From: Paraglaciecola sp. T6c
Lineage (GTDB): Bacteria; Pseudomonadota; Gammaproteobacteria; Enterobacterales; Alteromonadaceae
DNA length: 64,000 nucleotides
Direction: 5' to 3'
NCBI RefSeq assembly: GCF_000014225.1
Contig: NC_008228.1
Coordinates: 4,030,001 to 4,094,000, forward strand
Made by a program: the position numbers and the translations under genes. The notes beneath the pieces are model-generated. The model searched no databases. It was not told the origin of the DNA and was given only the letters and a program-made list of their open reading frames with translations. This document shows positions 8,751-16,228 of this stretch, in pieces (the first letter of the stretch is position 1; each line of letters starts with the position of its first letter).

Positions 8751-9502
8751 TATTCGTCGTAGCCTGGATTGGTGCGATCAAGTTTACGTAAAATGCCCGG
8801 CCAAGCTAGAGCACCACCTGCTGAGCGTGTCACTTGTTTTGCTTGCGCTCTGATACCCGCCAAAATTTGCTCTGGAATGGAAATAAGTTCTTGTCCTGAT
8901 GCTTGCGCTTGCAGCTGGATTTCACAAGAGCGTTGCAACAAGAACATCCCCAAAAATGCATCCGCGATAGAGTCTGCGCAGGTTAACAAGCCATGGTTAC
9001 GCAAAATCATAAAGTTGGTGTTGCCAAGGTCGGCCACCAATCGTTTTTTCTCCTCTGGGTTTAACGCAACCCCTTCATACTCGTGATAAGACATAGAGGA
9101 TAATGCAAATAAAGACTGTTGGCTCAGAGGCAGTAGCCCTTCCTTTTGAGTAGAGACTGCAATGCCGGCAGTCGTGTGCAAATGCATCACACACTGGGCA
9201 TCCTCGCGAGCTTCATGCACAGCACTGTGAATAACAAAACCGGCTGGGTTGATGTTGTAATCAGACGCCATCACCTTTTCGCCCTGTAAGTTAACTTTCA
9301 CTAAACTCGATGCGGTTACTTCGTCAAACATCATGCCGTATGGATTGATCAAAAAGTGATGCTCAGGCCCAGGCACTCGCGCTGATATATGGGTAAAGAC
9401 CAAATCATCCCAACCATAATGAGCGACCATACGGTATGCAGCCGCCAAGTCGACTCTGGCTTTCCATTCTTGTTCACTGACATGTTGCTTTACTGATGAC
9501 AT
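8750..9502 (-). CDS. Class II aldolase/adducin family protein
   Basis: This 250-residue protein belongs to the zinc-dependent aldolase/epimerase fold. Visible features are the N-terminal AAAYRMVAHYGWDDLVFTHISARV segment, the phosphate/substrate region HHFLINPYG, and metal ligands in MHLHTTAGIA (His107, His109) and ILRNHG. Family members include fuculose- and ribulose-phosphate aldolases, but many homologues of this subtype have no assigned substrate. It is the first gene of a two-gene unit with the alpha/beta hydrolase. It is divergent from the Crp/Fnr regulator gene with a 96-base spacer, which suggests local control by that regulator. Confidence 0.88.
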   Translation of the reverse strand: MSSVKQHVSEQEWKARVDLAAAYRMVAHYGWDDLVFTHISARVPGPEHHFLINPYGMMFDEVTASSLVKVNLQGEKVMASDYNINPAGFVIHSAVHEAREDAQCVMHLHTTAGIAVSTQKEGLLPLSQQSLFALSSMSYHEYEGVALNPEEKKRLVADLGNTNFMILRNHGLLTCADSIADAFLGMFLLQRSCEIQLQAQASGQELISIPEQILAGIRAQAKQVTRSAGGALAWPGILRKLDRTNPGYDE

Positions 9503-9561
9503 TTATTTACTTCTTTTCGATTGTTAAATTTGTGTTCACAACTTAATCTACCGATACCATT

Positions 9562-9582
9562 CAAACTGTCGCCTATACGACA
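9562..9582. promoter_or_regulatory. Candidate operator between aldolase and Crp/Fnr genes
   Basis: TGTCG-N6-CGACA (9567-9582) is an inverted repeat with the half-site spacing of Crp-family operators, although the half-sites are not the CRP consensus. The overlapping minus-strand sequence GCGACAGTTTG (9572 to 9562) matches 10 of 11 bases of the left part of the RegA-type box upstream of the nearby TonB receptor gene. Either the Crp/Fnr protein or the RegA-like regulator could bind here; both are inferences. Confidence 0.4.
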
Positions 9583-9598
9583 ATCAAAGATAAATCCC

Positions 9599-10291
9599 AT
9601 GTTATTAGACTCGATCAGGCCCATTCTTAGTCAAAGTTCTTGGTTCAAATCACTTCCTCAAGACGCGATTGAACAACTTGTCACTGCGGCAAAATTAAAG
9701 CGCCTAGACACAGGTCAATTGGTCTATCAAAAGCATGATTTAGGCGACGGCTTGTATTGCGTTATGTCAGGTAAGGTGCGTTTAAGCAATGTCACACTCG
9801 AAGGAAAGGAACTCATTTTAACCTGGATGCAACCCGGTAATTGGTTTGGGGAGATTTCACTGTTTGACGGATTGCCTCGGGCTCACGATGCTTATGCAGA
9901 TGAGCCCTGTGAGTTACTGAAAATATCGAGTCAGGATTTTAAAGCCTTGCTGATTGAGCGCCCCACGCTTTACCCACATTTCATGCGTTTGCTGTGTCAG
10001 CGCATTCGCACCACATTTTCGTTCATCGATGAAACCGGAAGCTTGTCTCTAAAAGGGAAATTATGCGGCCGCATTTTACTATTCGCTGAAGGTTTAGAGC
10101 ATCAAGCTCCTATCGAAAACGGCTCGAGCTTGTGCATTTCTCAAGAGTCTCTGGCCTTGATGCTGCACAGCTCAAGGCAAACGGTGAATAAGCTACTGCA
10201 AGAATTACAGCAGCAAGGCGTTATTAAAGTCCACTATGGGAAAATAACCATTGTGCAGCACACCATGCTTAAAACCCTTTGCCAGATTTAG
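9599..10291 (+). CDS. Crp/Fnr family transcriptional regulator
   Basis: With the ATG at 9599 the protein has 230 residues, the usual Crp/Fnr length. The open frame extends upstream to 9521, but that would place coding sequence over the divergent promoter region and adds a non-family N-terminus. The effector domain shows DGLYCVMSGKVRL and WFGEISLFDGLPRAHDAYA, resembling the cyclic-nucleotide phosphate-binding cassette. The C-terminal helix-turn-helix is ISQESLALMLHSSRQTVNKL. No FNR-type cysteine cluster is seen, so oxygen sensing through an iron-sulfur cluster is unlikely. It is divergent from the aldolase-hydrolase pair and upstream of the copper-type TonB receptor gene; which of these it controls is unknown. 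Confidence 0.88.
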   Translation: MLLDSIRPILSQSSWFKSLPQDAIEQLVTAAKLKRLDTGQLVYQKHDLGDGLYCVMSGKVRLSNVTLEGKELILTWMQPGNWFGEISLFDGLPRAHDAYADEPCELLKISSQDFKALLIERPTLYPHFMRLLCQRIRTTFSFIDETGSLSLKGKLCGRILLFAEGLEHQAPIENGSSLCISQESLALMLHSSRQTVNKLLQELQQQGVIKVHYGKITIVQHTMLKTLCQI

Positions 10292-10350
10292 CGCTTGCTA
10301 CACCCGCACTAAATACTTAACACCCATACGGTTGTGCAGACATGCTTGGT

Positions 10351-10365
10351 GCGACAATTTGTCGC
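10351..10365 (+). promoter_or_regulatory. Candidate RegA/PrrA/RegR-type box upstream of the TonB receptor gene
   Basis: GCGACAATTTGTCGC is a 15-bp perfect palindrome about an odd centre. It fits GCGNC-N5-GNCGC and agrees at 14 of 15 positions with the RegR-box consensus as I recall it (GNGRCRTTNNGNCGC). It sits immediately upstream of the -35 area. The predicted centre is about -44 relative to a start inferred from the -10 box at 10390-10395, a position typical for activators. A RegA-like regulator is encoded about 3.3 kb downstream. Confidence 0.6.
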
Positions 10366-10389
10366 GTTTTCAGCGCCTATCGCCCTTTA

Positions 10390-10395
10390 TATAAT
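10390..10395 (+). promoter_or_regulatory. -10 element of the TonB receptor promoter
   Basis: A perfect TATAAT lies 32 bases before the receptor ATG. The -35 region 17 bases upstream (around 10367-10372, TTTTCA) is a poor match to TTGACA, which fits a promoter that needs an activator. Confidence 0.5.
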
Positions 10396-10426
10396 GGTGC
10401 TCTAATCAAGTCATATAAGATAGATA

Positions 10427-12580
10427 ATGAAACCGTCATCTCCTCGCTCATCCTATATATGGTGTTTATCCCCCGTCGCTTTGGCCATCAGCAGTACTTT
10501 CTCTTTTGCAATACATGCTGAAGAGACCATTGAAATAGTCGAAATCAATGGTCATCAACAAAATAATGCGAGTCAACTAGGGTCAGTGGACGAATTGTTA
10601 AAGCGTCAAGGTGTCGATTTTTCTGCTGCAGGCGGCATGTCGAGCTTACCGGTTTTAAATGGCATGATGGGCGACAGGGTAAAAGTGTTAATTGATGGGG
10701 CTGATATTACCGCCTCTTGCGCTAATCACATGAATCCGCCTTTATCATATGTATCGGCCAACCAAGTTCAGGTACTGAATGTTGTTGCTGGGATAAGCCC
10801 TGTCAGCGCAGGTGGTGATAACATTGCCGGCGTTATTAGCGTCAATGAGATCGCTCCACTGTACTTGGAAGGTAACGATGTGCGTTGGCATTCAGGTTAC
10901 GGCTCAGTGCAATACAACAGTAATAATCAAGCAAAATCAATAGGGCTAGGGGCCCGTATGGCAAGCCAAAATTTTAGTCTTGATTACCAAGGGGCTTTTG
11001 AGGATGCAAAAAGTTACGAAGACGGTCATGGCAACACAGTATTGGACACGTTATACAGGGCACAAAACCACGCATTAACTGTCGCTGTAAAAGACGATAA
11101 ACAACAGCTCGCTGTTAAACTTAACCACCAGAATATCCCATTTCAGGGATTCCCTAATCAATTTATGGATATGACTGACAACAAGAGTTATGGCATGACT
11201 AGCTTGTATCGGCGTCAGCTTGATGAGGGAGATTTTGAAGTTCAAGTAAATTGGCACGGTGTTAAACATGAGATGGGATTTTTCAGTGATGAAAAAACGG
11301 GCATGATGCCCATGAAAACGTCGGCAGATGATTACAGTTATCGATTGAACTGGCAATTTATCACCAGCACAAACAATACCGTCAATTTTGGACATGAGTA
11401 TTTTGAGTATCATCTAGATGATTGGTGGCCTGCAGTTGAAGACTCTATGATGATGGGGCCAAACAATTACATCAATATTAATGACGGTAAGCGTCAGCGA
11501 ATAGCTGTTTTTGCTGAAACATCTCAGTCACTCAATACCAATTGGTGGCTATCTGCTGGTATACGCCTTGAGCAGGTAACGACCAATACCGGTGAGGTTC
11601 AGCCTTATACCAATGACACATTGATGGACATGAGCTCAATGCATATGTCAATGGAGCCCAGCATGTCTATCAGTGCGTTAAACAATAACGATGCTGCAGA
11701 TATTTATAACGCAATGAACAGAAAACGTAGCAATACGTTAATAGATGCGACGCTCAGCACGCGCTACTTATTTGATGCCAGCCAGCAACTAGAATTGGCT
11801 ATTGCCCGTAAAAGTCGAGCACCCAATTTATACGAACGTTACAGCTGGGGCGTCAGTACCATGGCGACCACAATGATAGGTTGGTTCGGTGACGGTAACG
11901 GTTATATAGGCAACCCCAACCTAGCACCAGAAACAGCTCGCACCTTGAGCGTTAACTATAGCGATTCGACAGTGGATAATGAATGGAAATTTAGTGCCAA
12001 TGCTTGGTATACGTCGGTAAAAGATTACATTGATGCTGAAATAGTGAGTTCCTTTAACCATGCCTCGTCCGGTGCTGGCAACAGGAATATTCTGCAATTC
12101 ACAAATTTAGATGCAACCCTGTATGGGGTTAAGTTGAATGGGTCAATTCAGTTCTTAGATTCTGAAAAATGGGGGCTATGGCAACTGAACGCTAATCTAT
12201 CCACCACTCGCGGCAAGAGGGATGACAACGAAGGTGACTTGTATCAAATAGTGCCACTTAAATCTGAATTGAAAGTCGAGCAAAAAATGGGGAACTGGCA
12301 AAATGCAATTGCATGGCAATGGGTAGCAAGTAAGAAAGATACAGATGAACGACGTTTAGAAAATAGCACCAAAAGCTATCATCTCATTAATGTGAGCAGC
12401 AAATTAACTTGGCAAGACGTTACCCTATCATTCGCAGTTAATAACTTATTTGACACTTACTATGCGTTACCTATGGGAGGTGTGAGCATCGCCGAGTATA
12501 AAATGGATAACAGCCAAGGCTTCAGCCAATTAGCGGGCGCGGGGCGGTCTGTTAATATTGGCCTGAGTTACGCGTTCTAG
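10427..12580 (+). CDS. TonB-dependent copper receptor, OprC/NosA-like
   Basis: This is an outer-membrane TonB-dependent receptor of 717 residues. It has a signal peptide (about 1-31), a TonB-box-like ETIEIVEI, a plug domain (VKVLIDGADI, AGGDNIAGVISV) and a 22-strand barrel ending in the aromatic pattern GLSYAF. The plug carries Cys98 and Met102 in SCANHMNPPLSY (CxxxM), and the barrel carries His281 and Met283 in VKHEMGFF (HxM). These are the ligand patterns described for the copper receptor OprC, and their 183-residue separation is almost that in OprC (180). Extra Met-rich stretches occur at about 340-343 and 400-413. Copper import is therefore the best call. The gene precedes a two-component pair by 35 bases on the same strand, suggesting one unit. 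Confidence 0.85.
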   Translation: MKPSSPRSSYIWCLSPVALAISSTFSFAIHAEETIEIVEINGHQQNNASQLGSVDELLKRQGVDFSAAGGMSSLPVLNGMMGDRVKVLIDGADITASCANHMNPPLSYVSANQVQVLNVVAGISPVSAGGDNIAGVISVNEIAPLYLEGNDVRWHSGYGSVQYNSNNQAKSIGLGARMASQNFSLDYQGAFEDAKSYEDGHGNTVLDTLYRAQNHALTVAVKDDKQQLAVKLNHQNIPFQGFPNQFMDMTDNKSYGMTSLYRRQLDEGDFEVQVNWHGVKHEMGFFSDEKTGMMPMKTSADDYSYRLNWQFITSTNNTVNFGHEYFEYHLDDWWPAVEDSMMMGPNNYININDGKRQRIAVFAETSQSLNTNWWLSAGIRLEQVTTNTGEVQPYTNDTLMDMSSMHMSMEPSMSISALNNNDAADIYNAMNRKRSNTLIDATLSTRYLFDASQQLELAIARKSRAPNLYERYSWGVSTMATTMIGWFGDGNGYIGNPNLAPETARTLSVNYSDSTVDNEWKFSANAWYTSVKDYIDAEIVSSFNHASSGAGNRNILQFTNLDATLYGVKLNGSIQFLDSEKWGLWQLNANLSTTRGKRDDNEGDLYQIVPLKSELKVEQKMGNWQNAIAWQWVASKKDTDERRLENSTKSYHLINVSSKLTWQDVTLSFAVNNLFDTYYALPMGGVSIAEYKMDNSQGFSQLAGAGRSVNIGLSYAF

Positions 12581-12615
12581 TATTCTTGTGCGCTTTAGTT
12601 AAGAGCAAATAGCAA

Positions 12616-13689
12616 ATGTTGTTACTGATGGCAATGGCGTGTAAACGTCAAATACGCCTAATCCCCTGGTTAATGCTGTGTTTGTTGATGTTGGAAGTCA
12701 TTAGCATTAATACCTTAATAGCGCTTAATGGTGCCGCAAGTAATCCATTCAACGCGATACTGCTGGTTCCATTAGTATTGGCCTTTATGTTACTCCCCTT
12801 AGCGCATGCAGGGAGCTTGTTAATATTGAGTATCATTGCGCAATTTGTTCAAGTGCTATTGCTACCCGAACACGTCCATCATCAAGGCATGATGCAAGAG
12901 CACTCATATGCCATGGTTGGAAGTTTTGTTTTAACCAGTTTACTTATTGCCATCGTAGTGTGTTACTTCCGTTATCAAATTGCGGATCGTGAACGTATCT
13001 TACAGAAACTACGAGAGCGCCAACTGCGAGACGAGCAACTACTGGCGATTGGAACCGCTGCAGCGCAATTAACACACGATGTAGCGACGCCAGCTCAATC
13101 TATACGTTTATTATTAGAAGAAGGCGCCGAGCAGCAACGTTCAACAGGATGGTTACATGCGTTAGAGCAACAATTCCAGCGTATCGAACAACAGTTGCGC
13201 AATTGGCGAGTGGTTGCCGATGATGTAAGAGAACAGCGGATGCATAGATACAAGTTGGATGAATTAACCGATTCATTACGTCAGCTAATGCAAATATCTA
13301 GGCCAGAAGCAGAAATCCAGTGGCAGTCACAACGCAATGATAAGCAGCAGTTTATATTGGCAGATCGAACGCTACTGCCAGCGCTTACAAGTGTCATCAT
13401 CAATGCATGTGAAGCGGCACTCAAAAGCCATAACCAGCGTGTATTGGTGAGCACTAACATAAGCAAAAGCGGTTGGCATTTGCAAATAGAGAACGAAGGG
13501 AGAGCCATGCCAGAGGAGGCTATCGCATCATTGGGCAGGCGGTTTTTCCCTAGTCACGAAGGCCACGGCATTGGTGCAGTTTTGACTAACGCGACCCTCG
13601 AAAAATTTGCAGGGAAAGTAAATTGGCAGTTCAAAAACGACACCATGATAACCACGATTTATTTGCCTTTGGACTATACGCATGCGTAG
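12616..13689 (+). CDS. RegB-like membrane histidine kinase with His/Met-rich loop
   Basis: The 357-residue sensor kinase has four predicted membrane helices (about 15-38, 46-63, 66-83, 101-118). A cytoplasmic H-box LTHDVATPAQSIRLL (His154), N-box INACEAA (Asn263) and G-box GHGIGAVL follow. Residues 39-45 read GAASNPF, nearly the GGxxNPF quinone-binding motif of RegB/PrrB. The loop at 84-100 contains HVHHQGMMQEH; by the positive-inside rule it faces the periplasm, so it could bind copper. It overlaps the response-regulator gene by 8 bases and lies 35 bases after the copper-type receptor gene. Redox and/or copper sensing is inference; the kinase identity is firm. The first Met was taken as start, with only a weak ribosome-binding site. 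Confidence 0.85.
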   Translation: MLLLMAMACKRQIRLIPWLMLCLLMLEVISINTLIALNGAASNPFNAILLVPLVLAFMLLPLAHAGSLLILSIIAQFVQVLLLPEHVHHQGMMQEHSYAMVGSFVLTSLLIAIVVCYFRYQIADRERILQKLRERQLRDEQLLAIGTAAAQLTHDVATPAQSIRLLLEEGAEQQRSTGWLHALEQQFQRIEQQLRNWRVVADDVREQRMHRYKLDELTDSLRQLMQISRPEAEIQWQSQRNDKQQFILADRTLLPALTSVIINACEAALKSHNQRVLVSTNISKSGWHLQIENEGRAMPEEAIASLGRRFFPSHEGHGIGAVLTNATLEKFAGKVNWQFKNDTMITTIYLPLDYTHA

Positions 13690-14209
13690 CCTAATACTGA
13701 TTGACGATGATGAGGCATTCTTAACCGTCATTAAGCGACGATTTCTGCAAACAGGCTTATTTACCGTCACCACTCACACCAGTGTTAGCGAAGCCTTACT
13801 GCAACCTGTTTCACCAACTCACGGAATATTACTCGATATGATGCTCGGCTCCGATTCAGGATTAGACGGCATCGAGGCATTAAAACGGCATTTTCATCCT
13901 ACCCATCTCATTATGCTTACTGGCTATGCCAGCATAGCGACTTCTGTGGAGGCCATGCGCCGTGGTGCAACTGACTACATTACCAAACCGATTAGCTTTC
14001 AAGAGCTTGTCCTGCGCTTCCAAGAAATCCCCGGTTCAAAGGAGCCTCCTCAAGCAAAACCTATGACGCCTGCTCAAGTTGAATGGGAACACATACAGCG
14101 CATTTTACTCAGCCACAATGGCAATATTAGTGTGACTGCCCATGCTCTGGGTATGCACAGAAGAACCTTACAACGAAAGTTGCAGAAATTTTCACCAAGC
14201 AAAAGTTAA
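13682..14209 (+). CDS. RegA/PrrA-like response regulator
   Basis: The 175-residue protein has a receiver domain with acidic pocket LIDDDEAF, phosphoacceptor Asp52 in GILLDMMLG, Thr80 and Lys102 in YITKPI. It ends in a Fis-type helix-turn-helix, VEWEHIQRILLSHNGNISVT followed by AHALGMHRRTLQRKL. This exactly follows the RegA/PrrA/ActR pattern, in which a short linker joins receiver and Fis-like domain and the WEHIQR and HRRTLQR segments are hallmarks. It overlaps its cognate kinase gene by 8 bases. RegA proteins control redox-linked genes such as oxidases and denitrification genes; here the nearest matching box lies before the copper-type TonB receptor gene. Confidence 0.9.
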   Translation: MRSLILIDDDEAFLTVIKRRFLQTGLFTVTTHTSVSEALLQPVSPTHGILLDMMLGSDSGLDGIEALKRHFHPTHLIMLTGYASIATSVEAMRRGATDYITKPISFQELVLRFQEIPGSKEPPQAKPMTPAQVEWEHIQRILLSHNGNISVTAHALGMHRRTLQRKLQKFSPSKS

Positions 14210-14582
14210 TACCAATATGGCGCGCTAAAACAATAAACGACAAATATAAAAATAATGCGATGCTAATGTGCATATGCTAATACGGATGAAACCAACTTCA
14301 TTGAATATGATTAGCCATGCGCCCGCTGAAATCCCAAATGAAATCCAATACTAAACAGCATGGCTTTAATCAAACACGCTTTTTTTAATATTCGAATGCC
14401 ACAAAAATATACATTTATGTCTAATATCATTCATGTTGCCGCCCGTTAAACTGGCTTGGATTGATACCCAAAGATATAAAATGCCTAAAGACACCCATGT
14501 AGCCACCTTTAAGTTACGCAAGCAAACACGTATGAAGCAACGATACTGATGAAGTAAGATCTAACAGGGACAGCTAAATAGC
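14210..14582. other. Intergenic region between the RegA-like gene and the barrel operon
   Basis: This 373-base stretch presumably holds the promoter of the next operon. I find no clear hairpin terminator after the response regulator, no RegA-type box and no small gene with a convincing start. Confidence 0.4.
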
Positions 14583-15599
14583 ATGAAAAATGTTTACTTG
14601 CAGAAACGAACGTTAATCGCCCTAAGCGCATGTTCATCAACTTTTTCTGTAAATGCAGTCCCCCTAAACAGCCAATGGCTAACAGAAAACAGCCGCTGGA
14701 CAATCGACGCTTCCGCGCAGGTAAATCGTAATACCGACACCCAAAAAAATGCACAAAGCTATGCGCTAGGAGTGGATTTTCACAAAGTATTTAGCGATGA
14801 CACTCACGATATCGGCACCCTTACCTTTCAACCTTACTTAGTAAAAATCAATAATGTAGGTCGCCCCCCATTTACGTTTGATGATGGAGATGACACGGAA
14901 CTGACCTGGCGAATTGCAAATTTTAACTACACCGCGTTAGCGCAAGGTAAATTCAATGTTCGGCTAGGACACTTTGAAATACCCTATGGCTTAGAGTATG
15001 CCGAAGACACCAATGGTACATTGAGACAAATGACGGCCAGTGATCGTGGCATAAAAGCAGATTGGGGTATTTCTTTTAATGGCATTTTACCCTACCTAGA
15101 ATATGAAGTGGCCTTTACGCGGGGCTCAGGGAACGAGATAAAAAGCACTGGCAACCCTCATGTAATTTCAGGTCGAATTGGTTCACCGAGCCAGCGTAAC
15201 CTGATCACTGGTATTTCGTGGTTCAAAGGTGACGTTCTGACCAGAGATGGCTTGGTAGAGCGAGAAAGATATGGTATTGACGTGTCGTACTTCTATTACC
15301 AGTGGCAGTTTATGCTTGAATCATCTTGGGGTGAAACACAAGACAATGACACACGTCATAGCTTTGCCGAGGTTGCCTGGATGAGCCCTCAAGAGCACTG
15401 GAAAAGTTACCTTCAATTGGTTTATCAAGATATTGACGTTGAACGAAGGAACGACTTTGCAAGCTATTGGATATTCGGTCTAAGATGGCAAAATAACGAT
15501 GGCTTCGATTTAAGTGCCCAGTTTAAACACGATCTCCATTCAGCGTCTACAATTGAGACAGCGCCAAATTTAAGCCTGCAAGTAAGGTATAGATTATAA
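14583..15599 (+). CDS. Outer-membrane beta-barrel (porin-like) protein, function unknown
   Basis: The 338-residue product begins with a signal peptide (MKNVYLQKRTLIALSACSST, cleavage near VNA at about 26). It continues with alternating hydrophobic/polar stretches rich in aromatic residues, typical of outer-membrane barrels, and ends in a terminal strand LQVRYRL. Segments such as FNVRLGHFEIPYGLEYAEDT resemble the phosphate-selective porin/alginate-porin-like barrels (inference). It is the first gene of a three-gene operon. Its stop overlaps the ATG of the periplasmic protein by one base (TAATG), so the products are likely made together. The substrate is unknown. Confidence 0.7.
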   Translation: MKNVYLQKRTLIALSACSSTFSVNAVPLNSQWLTENSRWTIDASAQVNRNTDTQKNAQSYALGVDFHKVFSDDTHDIGTLTFQPYLVKINNVGRPPFTFDDGDDTELTWRIANFNYTALAQGKFNVRLGHFEIPYGLEYAEDTNGTLRQMTASDRGIKADWGISFNGILPYLEYEVAFTRGSGNEIKSTGNPHVISGRIGSPSQRNLITGISWFKGDVLTRDGLVERERYGIDVSYFYYQWQFMLESSWGETQDNDTRHSFAEVAWMSPQEHWKSYLQLVYQDIDVERRNDFASYWIFGLRWQNNDGFDLSAQFKHDLHSASTIETAPNLSLQVRYRL

Positions 15600-16228
15600 T
15601 GAAGAACAAATACCCACGTTTCATCGCCCCCACCATACGCTTAGGTTTGCTCGTTTTAGCCTTAGTAGCACCAACCGCCTACGCGGCTTTTTGTTCGTTA
15701 CGAGACCCAATTTCAGCTATTCAAACCTTGTTCGATGAAGATAATCAATTTCGCTCCGTGGTCACCGATGTGACACACAAAGACAGAGAGCAACTTAAAC
15801 AATTACTGCCATTTACAATACATCAAAGTGAAGTGGCCAAGCACACCTTGTACGTCGTGTACGACGGCGAAATACCTCTGGGGTTCTTACAGGCTCGCTC
15901 TGAATGGGCGAAATGGGGACTGGTGGAAATTGCTTGGGCAATGAATCTAGATAGAAGTATAAAAGGGTTTTATTTTCAGCGTTGCCGAAGCCCCCAATGC
16001 AACGACACCGTTGTAGCAAGTATATCTGAGGCGTTGAAAGGAAAGCACTTTTCTGATTTAAAAAGCCTACTCAGTAACGATGGAAACGCCTTGTCTGCTG
16101 CTGGTGAAGCGGCCTTCCCTATTGCCCCTAATTTAGCCCTTCTGACCTTGCATTCAGCGTTAAAAACGCTGGCGATTACCGATATTAGTTGGCAGCACGA
16201 AATCCACAATATCACTCAGCGAGACTAA
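15599..16228 (+). CDS. Exported protein with FMN-binding-domain-like features
   Basis: The 209-residue protein has a signal sequence (about 1-29, ending TAYAA). The middle (LYVVYDGEIPLGFLQARSEW, then WGLVEIAWAMNLDRSIKGFYF) follows the pattern of periplasmic FMN_bind domains (gkhglIeyavgld..g.vkgv). However, the usual ETPGxG-like segment is replaced by QRCRSPQCND with two cysteines. FMN or redox binding is therefore only possible, not shown. It is tightly coupled to the upstream barrel gene (1-base overlap) and lies 8 bases before a GGDEF-EAL gene. It may be the periplasmic partner of either product. Confidence 0.5.
   Translation: MKNKYPRFIAPTIRLGLLVLALVAPTAYAAFCSLRDPISAIQTLFDEDNQFRSVVTDVTHKDREQLKQLLPFTIHQSEVAKHTLYVVYDGEIPLGFLQARSEWAKWGLVEIAWAMNLDRSIKGFYFQRCRSPQCNDTVVASISEALKGKHFSDLKSLLSNDGNALSAAGEAAFPIAPNLALLTLHSALKTLAITDISWQHEIHNITQRD

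Follow-up and report, generated by a model that had tools for sequence, protein, structure and literature searches.

Two-component systems of the RegB/RegA type are regulators of redox and oxygen responses; the import of copper across the outer membrane is, to our knowledge, a young field, and sensors of copper shortage are poorly known. RegB/RegA is described as a redox system with the quinone motif GGXXNPF (PMC8191878), and in R. capsulatus RegA represses nosR and nos and activates cydAB (PMC5359404). RegR of B. japonicum binds the nosR promoter, nosR being listed among the anoxically induced RegR-controlled genes (PMC4064962); repression in one case and anoxic induction in the other imply that the direction of control at nosR may differ between species. 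RegA of R. capsulatus is described as a copper-binding protein, copper acting via its Cys156, and has been linked with the copper chaperone gene senC as well; group 1 RegA and/or RegB is stated to share a transcript with senC without exception (PMC9147068). As to the receptors, CxxxM-HxM constitutes the copper site of OprC (PMC8610252), and PepSY_TM and PCuAC proteins have been linked to copper (PMC12914433). The locus described below belongs to a known kind, that of the RegB/RegA redox systems; what is new is a RegBA-type module with a predicted dedication to copper import.

The operon and its promoter in the window

The window (the whole stretch of DNA analysed, 64,000 nucleotides of Paraglaciecola sp. 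T6c) contains the genes of an OprC-like receptor, a RegB-like kinase and a RegA-like regulator (Table 1), all head to tail on the forward strand, with 35 bases between receptor and kinase and an overlap of 8 bases between kinase and regulator, an arrangement which makes read-through plausible. Before the receptor gene stands a palindrome with a single-base centre at 10358, its sequence exactly as claimed in the earlier note; together with a -35 and a -10 element it lies within 10351-10395. The -35 and -10 are separated by 17 bases and match the consensus at 10 of 12 positions, a promoter match that taken alone is not above chance, as shuffles average 0.6 such sites. By what we take to be the usual distance between a -10 element and the start, transcription is predicted to begin at around 10402, and the positions therefore agree with the proposal that the box abuts a poor -35 and is centred about 44 bases before the start expected from TATAAT. 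The resemblance of GCGACAATTTGTCGC to the RegR box, likewise proposed, was confirmed: compared with the form GNGRCRTTNNGNCGC given in PMC5506826, it agrees at 14 of 15 positions.

Table 1. Positions in the window of the predicted operator, the promoter elements and the three genes of the operon
Feature	Position	Strand	Basis
RegA-type operator (predicted), palindrome GCGACAATTTGTCGC	10351-10365	+	sequence; conservation; co-occurrence with RegA-family regulators
Poor -35, TTTTCA (predicted)	10367-10372	+	consensus scan; directly after the box
-10, TATAAT	10390-10395	+	consensus scan; starts 32 bases beyond the box centre
OprC-like TonB-dependent receptor, 717 aa	10427-12580	+	PF07715/PF00593; OprC PDB matches; aligned copper ligands
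RegB-like histidine kinase, 357 aa	12616-13689	+	best NCBIfam match NF033792 (ActS/PrrB/RegB); alignments; quinone-type motif GAASNPF; loop with His and Met; redox-box Cys absent
RegA-like response regulator, 175 aa	13682-14209	+	best NCBIfam match NF033791 (ActR/PrrA/RegA); PDB 3rqi, 1umq

All six PDB sequences matched by the receptor at E <= 0.001 are OprC, and all four copper ligands of OprC are present, as Cys98-x3-Met102 and His281-x-Met283. In an alignment of 23 receptors these columns hold Cys in 22, Met in 23, His in 23 and Met in 23, and they coincide with the motifs of two TIGR01778 members (L117 and L051). The designation 'copper receptor' in the earlier note is supported by the ligand residues but not by the family score, since the window receptor misses the TIGR01778 equivalog cut-off (113.6 versus 472.45); to regard copper as its cargo is nevertheless reasonable.

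The RegA-like regulator had been placed downstream on the same strand, which is correct, yet both it and the kinase have diverged to scores below the equivalog cut-offs: 140 bits against 250 for the regulator (NF033791) and 82.2 bits against 350 for the kinase (NF033792). The regulator consists of a receiver domain (PF00072) and a Fis-type HTH (PF02954) with the RegA recognition helix, and the HTH sequence MHRRTLQRKLQK aligns closely with PDB entries 3rqi and 1umq.

Two observations concern the flanks of the operon. Directly upstream, on the same strand (9521-10291), lies a Crp/Fnr-type regulator gene, a homologue of which (86.5%) was found upstream in one related locus (L031) only, within the flanks retrieved. 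Downstream (14583-16228, forward strand) follow a gene with a weak porin match (PF07396, under the cut-off) and a 209-aa protein lacking a family match, both of which are likewise present downstream in L031.

The palindrome in related operons and across genomes

The pattern GCGNC-N5-GNCGC, with which the earlier note had proposed to scan the genome, does fit the window site, but as such it occurs at chance in this genome, at 61 places versus 57 for its reversed control. The 15-mer with up to three mismatches is not enriched here either (93+84 versus 116+106), and a half-relaxed pattern was found at seven places, the window's own included, versus four in the control, an outcome that gives no sign of a wider regulon here. 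The exact 15-mer and the strict form of the box defined below are each present a single time in the genome, and no second RegA-like protein appears among the matches listed; in this genome the predicted circuit looks local. With within-genome counts at chance, the evidence must come from other genomes, and the case is one of cross-species conservation and of co-occurrence with RegA-family regulators.

A protein search supplied 80 loci (the best 80 of 293), to which 30 from other family genomes were added. Seventeen of the loci are receptor-kinase-regulator operons (the window, L031-L035, L037-L041 and L111-L116, with L002, the same contig as L032, counted once), distributed over Alteromonadaceae, Shewanella, Idiomarina/Aliidiomarina and six further family genomes. 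Conservation of the palindrome at orthologous loci had been named beforehand as the refutation test: the box is kept in 17 of 17 of these operons, and the distance to the -10 is the same in most. It is also present in one operon in which MbnP/MbnH genes accompany the kinase and regulator (L036). Taking the best match within 400 bases in each of these 18 rows (with the start codon of L041 set 36 bases inside the longest frame), we found 12-14 of 14 specified matches, the box beginning 43-93 bases before the start codon used. Ten of its 15 positions are invariant in all 18 rows, with more variation in its right arm than in its left. The flanking columns mostly drift, remaining below 0.5 bit; outside the core of the box this value is exceeded at its edges (-2 to 0 and 16-17), in the -10 (40, 41, 43, 44 and 45) and at 51, 54 and 55. 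In most rows 32 bases separate the -10 from the box centre. Of the 18 rows, 15 have T as the first base of the -10, 16 have A as the second and 16 have T as the last, and four of its six columns are conserved in register in 14-16 rows. Judged from this alignment, the palindrome is real and constrained.

The box is lacking in two of the 20 kinase-regulator pairs of the clade, L117 and L118 (nine and eight of 13 matches), the receptor of L117 passing TIGR01778 (606.9 versus 472.45) despite the missing box. In L036 (3464-8543), a kinase and a regulator of the same clade stand with MbnP (256.6 versus a cut-off of 140) and MbnH (461.6 versus 362.85) in place of the receptor, the box preceding MbnP. 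A supported branch (100/96) separates the 20 module regulators (the 17 linked to receptors and those of L036, L009 and L010) from the others; on the tree the link to a receptor requires three changes where the least forced is one, and L009 and L010 are long branches. In four other genomes of the window's own genus (G004, G054, G089 and G117) the receptor search yielded nothing at E <= 1e-40, and neither a RegA-family regulator nor a strict box was found, hence the module is patchy. With respect to a plasmid origin, positions 9500-14300 had no near match in the plasmid collection.

For the comparison across genomes we used a stricter pattern, TGYGACAATNTGNCRC, with its reverse as the control, and 118 family genomes. 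It occurs at 97 sites in 59 of these genomes, against nine sites for the reverse. A RegA-family regulator was assigned to 66 genomes (the match reached E <= 1e-27 in 63 and was weaker or split in three, each genome being scored for up to 29 candidates), and 52 of these possess a strict box versus seven of the 52 RegA-negative genomes (Fisher 9e-13). The association persists without the eight genomes that supplied the box (44/58 versus 7/52; 2e-11) and is absent for the reversed control (6/66 versus 3/52). The strict box is missing from 14 of the 66 RegA-positive genomes. The RegA-negative genomes hold eight sites, of which four are internal to long reading frames (L128, L150, L155 and L171), three lack a named neighbour (L135, L149 and L169) and one precedes nosR (L145); the genome of the latter (G101), in which a RegA-family regulator was not found, is an unexplained exception.

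A further set comprised the 30 of 32 loci (L042-L073) in which a kinase was called, none of them used to define the box. In eight of the 30 the 400 bases preceding the kinase contain a site with at least 12 of 13 matches, whereas 299 shuffled palindromes averaged 0.02 such loci and never exceeded 1; six of the eight cluster together in the tree. Among 229 sampled genomes of the class, 43 contain the strict box, at 66 places in all (63 of the places outside G000 and G001) versus four control places. Thirty of the 66 were retrieved as loci. Of 28 newly retrieved sites, five adjoin RegB, two an OprC-like receptor, one a receptor of a second class and one PCuAC, and seven are internal to reading frames; the remaining 12 show no such neighbour, two of them being situated beside TonB_C proteins. 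In Chromobacterium-type loci the box stands between RegB and a divergent receptor gene; of one receptor tested for each type, that of the Chromobacterium-type L051 passes the TIGR01778 cut-off of 472.45 (607.6) and that of the Marinobacter locus L045 fails it (330.6). One genome (G290:C18 and G290:C107) carries six boxes, including two mirrored pairs 126 bases apart. Given its behaviour across genomes, the box is very probably an operator of RegA-family regulators.

Neighbouring genes and promoter geometry in other genomes

Of the 97 family sites, 94 were examined for their neighbours, the other three being those of the window, L032 and L112. Genes were clustered by single linkage of BLASTP matches, and one representative of each large cluster was run against Pfam or NCBIfam. 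Named clusters adjoin 75 of the 94 sites, whereas 19 are devoid of a named neighbour, eight of these lying inside reading frames. The neighbours comprise 27 OprC-like receptors (five from module loci), 16 NosR, 12 receptors of the second class (one site shared with PCuAC), five RegB, five proteins of PF13557 type, four MbnP, three PepSY_TM, and one each of DUF1775, CydA and another receptor. Altogether 52 sites adjoin OprC-like receptors, nosR, MbnP, PepSY_TM, PCuAC or DUF1775, the last presumably linked to copper as well; these are plain counts of neighbours.

Not all of the receptors show the complete ligand set. In the stretch examined, which is cut short in several, HxM occurs in all 27 OprC-like receptors and CxxxM in 10; in 13 of the remaining 17 a GPNAM-like stretch devoid of Cys is found, and four have no recognisable motif. 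The second receptor class (L157 and 11 others) has the box in front and neither CxxxM nor HxM in the stretch examined, several again being cut short. Cargoes other than copper are therefore possible for both groups. Proteins of about 320-390 aa also have the box in front (L172, L137, L139, L162, L198, and L220, L225, L234, L245); L172, the only one tested, matches PF13557, and in four class loci the same group is divergent from RegB. A role in copper storage guessed for a protein in L243 was dropped, the Pfam search having matched no family.

The distance between box and promoter falls into classes. With each site oriented to its gene and counting from the box centre, the best -10 outside the box starts at +32, as in the window, for one orientation of the receptors (13, five of them from module loci), for the second receptor class (12), for RegB (5) and for MbnP (4), and at +31 for the PF13557 group (5). 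The 14 receptors of the other orientation have their -10 peak outside the box at +48, and when all 27 receptors are pooled there is no peak at +32, the split by orientation having been our own choice. At nosR (16) the -10 is found at -15, so the box overlaps the predicted start, and an FNR-like element, recognised by the spacing of FNR elements, is present upstream in the promoters listed. The order in these nosR promoters (L136, L140, L141, L144, L145, L147, L148 and others) is FNR-like element, -10, then the box over the predicted start. On this geometry RegA apparently represses nosR, and the two arrangements suggest an activator position in one promoter class and a repressor position at nosR.

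The predicted circuit, its rivals and described systems

We propose that the RegA-like regulator, encoded behind receptor and kinase, has the palindrome as its operator. The regulator would be phosphorylated by its RegB-like partner, bind as a dimer at about -44 beside the weak -35 and recruit RNA polymerase, switching on the OprC-type receptor and, by read-through, also the kinase and regulator, which would constitute a positive feedback. Copper shortage might be read via the quinone pool, as copper-starved heme-copper oxidases would leave the pool reduced, or else directly by the His/Met loop of the kinase. Taken as a whole, a self-amplifying and dedicated RegBA-type switch for copper import, with the box as its operator, seems to us the best explanation and a likely one. 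The self-contained circuit predicted in the earlier note finds support, at the level of sequence, in the conserved box, the co-occurrence with RegA, the copper ligands and a gene order that fits read-through; from these and from the conserved spacing we infer binding, activation and feedback. Copper shortage is in our view the likeliest signal, if with slightly less than an even chance: it is suggested by the box before other copper-uptake genes of relatives and by the repressor position before nosR, which controls a copper enzyme.

With the same operator and regulator, the system may be an ordinary redox/oxygen RegBA switch, targeting copper genes only since heme-copper oxidases and N2O reductase need copper whenever respiration is adjusted, and sensing no copper itself, a reading we hold to be quite possible, if short of probable. 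It accords with the redox role and quinone motif of RegB (PMC8191878) and with the control of nosR and cydAB by RegA in R. capsulatus (PMC5359404). We aligned 20 kinases of the clade with 14 ordinary kinases of our own selection. The quinone motif reads GAASNPF in the window kinase, Ala replacing the second Gly, and its Asn and Pro are present in 20 of 20 module kinases, the last residue being Phe in 17 and Tyr in three. One loop His and one loop Met are common to all 20 module and all 14 ordinary kinases, so the loop alone is no argument for copper sensing; the number of loop His residues (2-5 versus 1-6) does not set the module apart either, and the idea that the loop had gained copper ligands is thereby weakened. 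On account of these shared columns we rate the copper-economy reading given below, with its copper-sensing offshoot, somewhat lower and the plain redox switch slightly higher. Against the latter, a further loop Met is found in 19 of 20 module kinases versus seven of 14 ordinary ones, and a Cys present in 14 of 14 ordinary kinases is replaced by Ile, Val or Leu in 20 of 20 module kinases; the column is putatively that of the redox-active Cys265 of R. capsulatus RegB. As the window regulator has no Cys at all and the kinase no Cys in this column, the quinone pool or a metal in the loop are left as candidate signals. The 52 of 94 box sites beside copper-linked genes or nosR also speak against a plain redox switch.

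Alternatively, the RegA-like protein might bind the box but repress the receptor and be released at copper shortage, which we consider improbable. RegA proteins both activate and repress (PMC5359404), and the nosR boxes overlap the predicted start; the receptor box, however, lies upstream of a poor -35 and covers neither the -10 nor the start, and an offset of +32 is seen again in the promoters of RegB, MbnP and further receptors, as would be expected of an activator.

Binding by the Crp/Fnr-type regulator encoded next to the box can be given very little credence. Its gene is adjacent, and positions near -41.5 are typical of Crp/Fnr activators, but within the flank retrieved a homologue accompanies only one of the 17 other box loci (L031), the box tracks RegA-family regulators across genomes, and its core GCGACA/TGTCGC is, as we understand it, no Crp/Fnr half site; the gene not being conserved with the box, this candidate was rejected. 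Least credible of all is an RNA hairpin, which might for instance terminate transcription of the gene upstream, or a palindrome arisen by chance: the sequence folds at -9.7 kcal/mol with GUUUU after it, and near matches are at chance in this genome, yet the folding z-score is only -0.86, 41 of 200 shuffles fold as well and a search for a terminator-like site found none, on which grounds the hairpin was rejected, while the more variable right arm and the kept -10 distance are not what a hairpin would favour.

Kept almost unchanged in distant marine bacteria, and at a nearly constant distance from the promoter, the palindrome very probably belongs to a RegA-type regulator, and copper import is thus probably among the functions of a system otherwise known from redox control. 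The gene lists further suggest that the RegA box may mark a copper-economy regulon in these bacteria. A fuller version is put forward tentatively. In many Gammaproteobacteria and Chromobacterium-type loci, RegBA-type systems would turn on importers (OprC-like receptors, MbnP/MbnH, PCuAC, PepSY_TM, and in one genome cydA, the gene of a copper-free oxidase) and hold down the nos operon, with its high copper demand, at copper shortage; the window system would be a stripped-down offshoot, its kinase lacking the thiol redox switch and having a Met-enriched His/Met loop, that serves as a dedicated copper-shortage sensor for its own receptor. A predicted RegA operator in activator position at copper receptors and in repressor position at nosR offers a testable link between respiration and copper supply, with a bearing on N2O reduction since nos needs copper, and the kinase clade devoid of the thiol switch may serve as a natural experiment on what RegB senses.

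The closest described systems are RegB/RegA and their equivalents (PrrBA, ActSR, RegSR, RoxSR), with which the module shares its best NCBIfam matches, an HTH similar to 3rqi and 1umq, a quinone-type motif and 14 of 15 positions of the RegR form. It differs in scores below the equivalog cut-offs, in the single strict box of the window genome and in a kinase of 357 aa without the conserved Cys, as compared with 410-480 aa in the 14 ordinary kinases. Six neighbouring window proteins were scanned with Pfam, with no match to the SenC/SCO1 family. The copper-disulfide mechanism of R. capsulatus RegA is ruled out here, as the window regulator lacks Cys; as a target, a copper receptor goes unmentioned in the text seen of that work, and the term 'TonB' is absent from its main text (PMC9147068). 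In the literature searched, control of an OprC-type copper receptor by RegA was not encountered. The window receptor is like the OprC/NosA receptors (TIGR01778) in its CxxxM-HxM site and its OprC-only PDB matches and unlike them in its score, although receptors beside related systems (L117 and L051) do pass. In Methylomonas sp. DH-1, RegA affects metal-uptake genes including one of a TonB-dependent receptor; there, however, the metal is iron, and ChIP binding was reported at feo and not at the receptor or tonB promoters (PMC13274454). CrtA of Bordetella and Pseudomonas differs in its control, described as CruR- and Rho-dependent, and the term 'RegA' is absent from the main text (PMC12914433), but it resembles the present system in a TonB-dependent copper import that is tied to respiratory oxidases, and of its neighbours, the PepSY_TM, PCuAC and Sco genes, the first two are also found beside the boxes described here.
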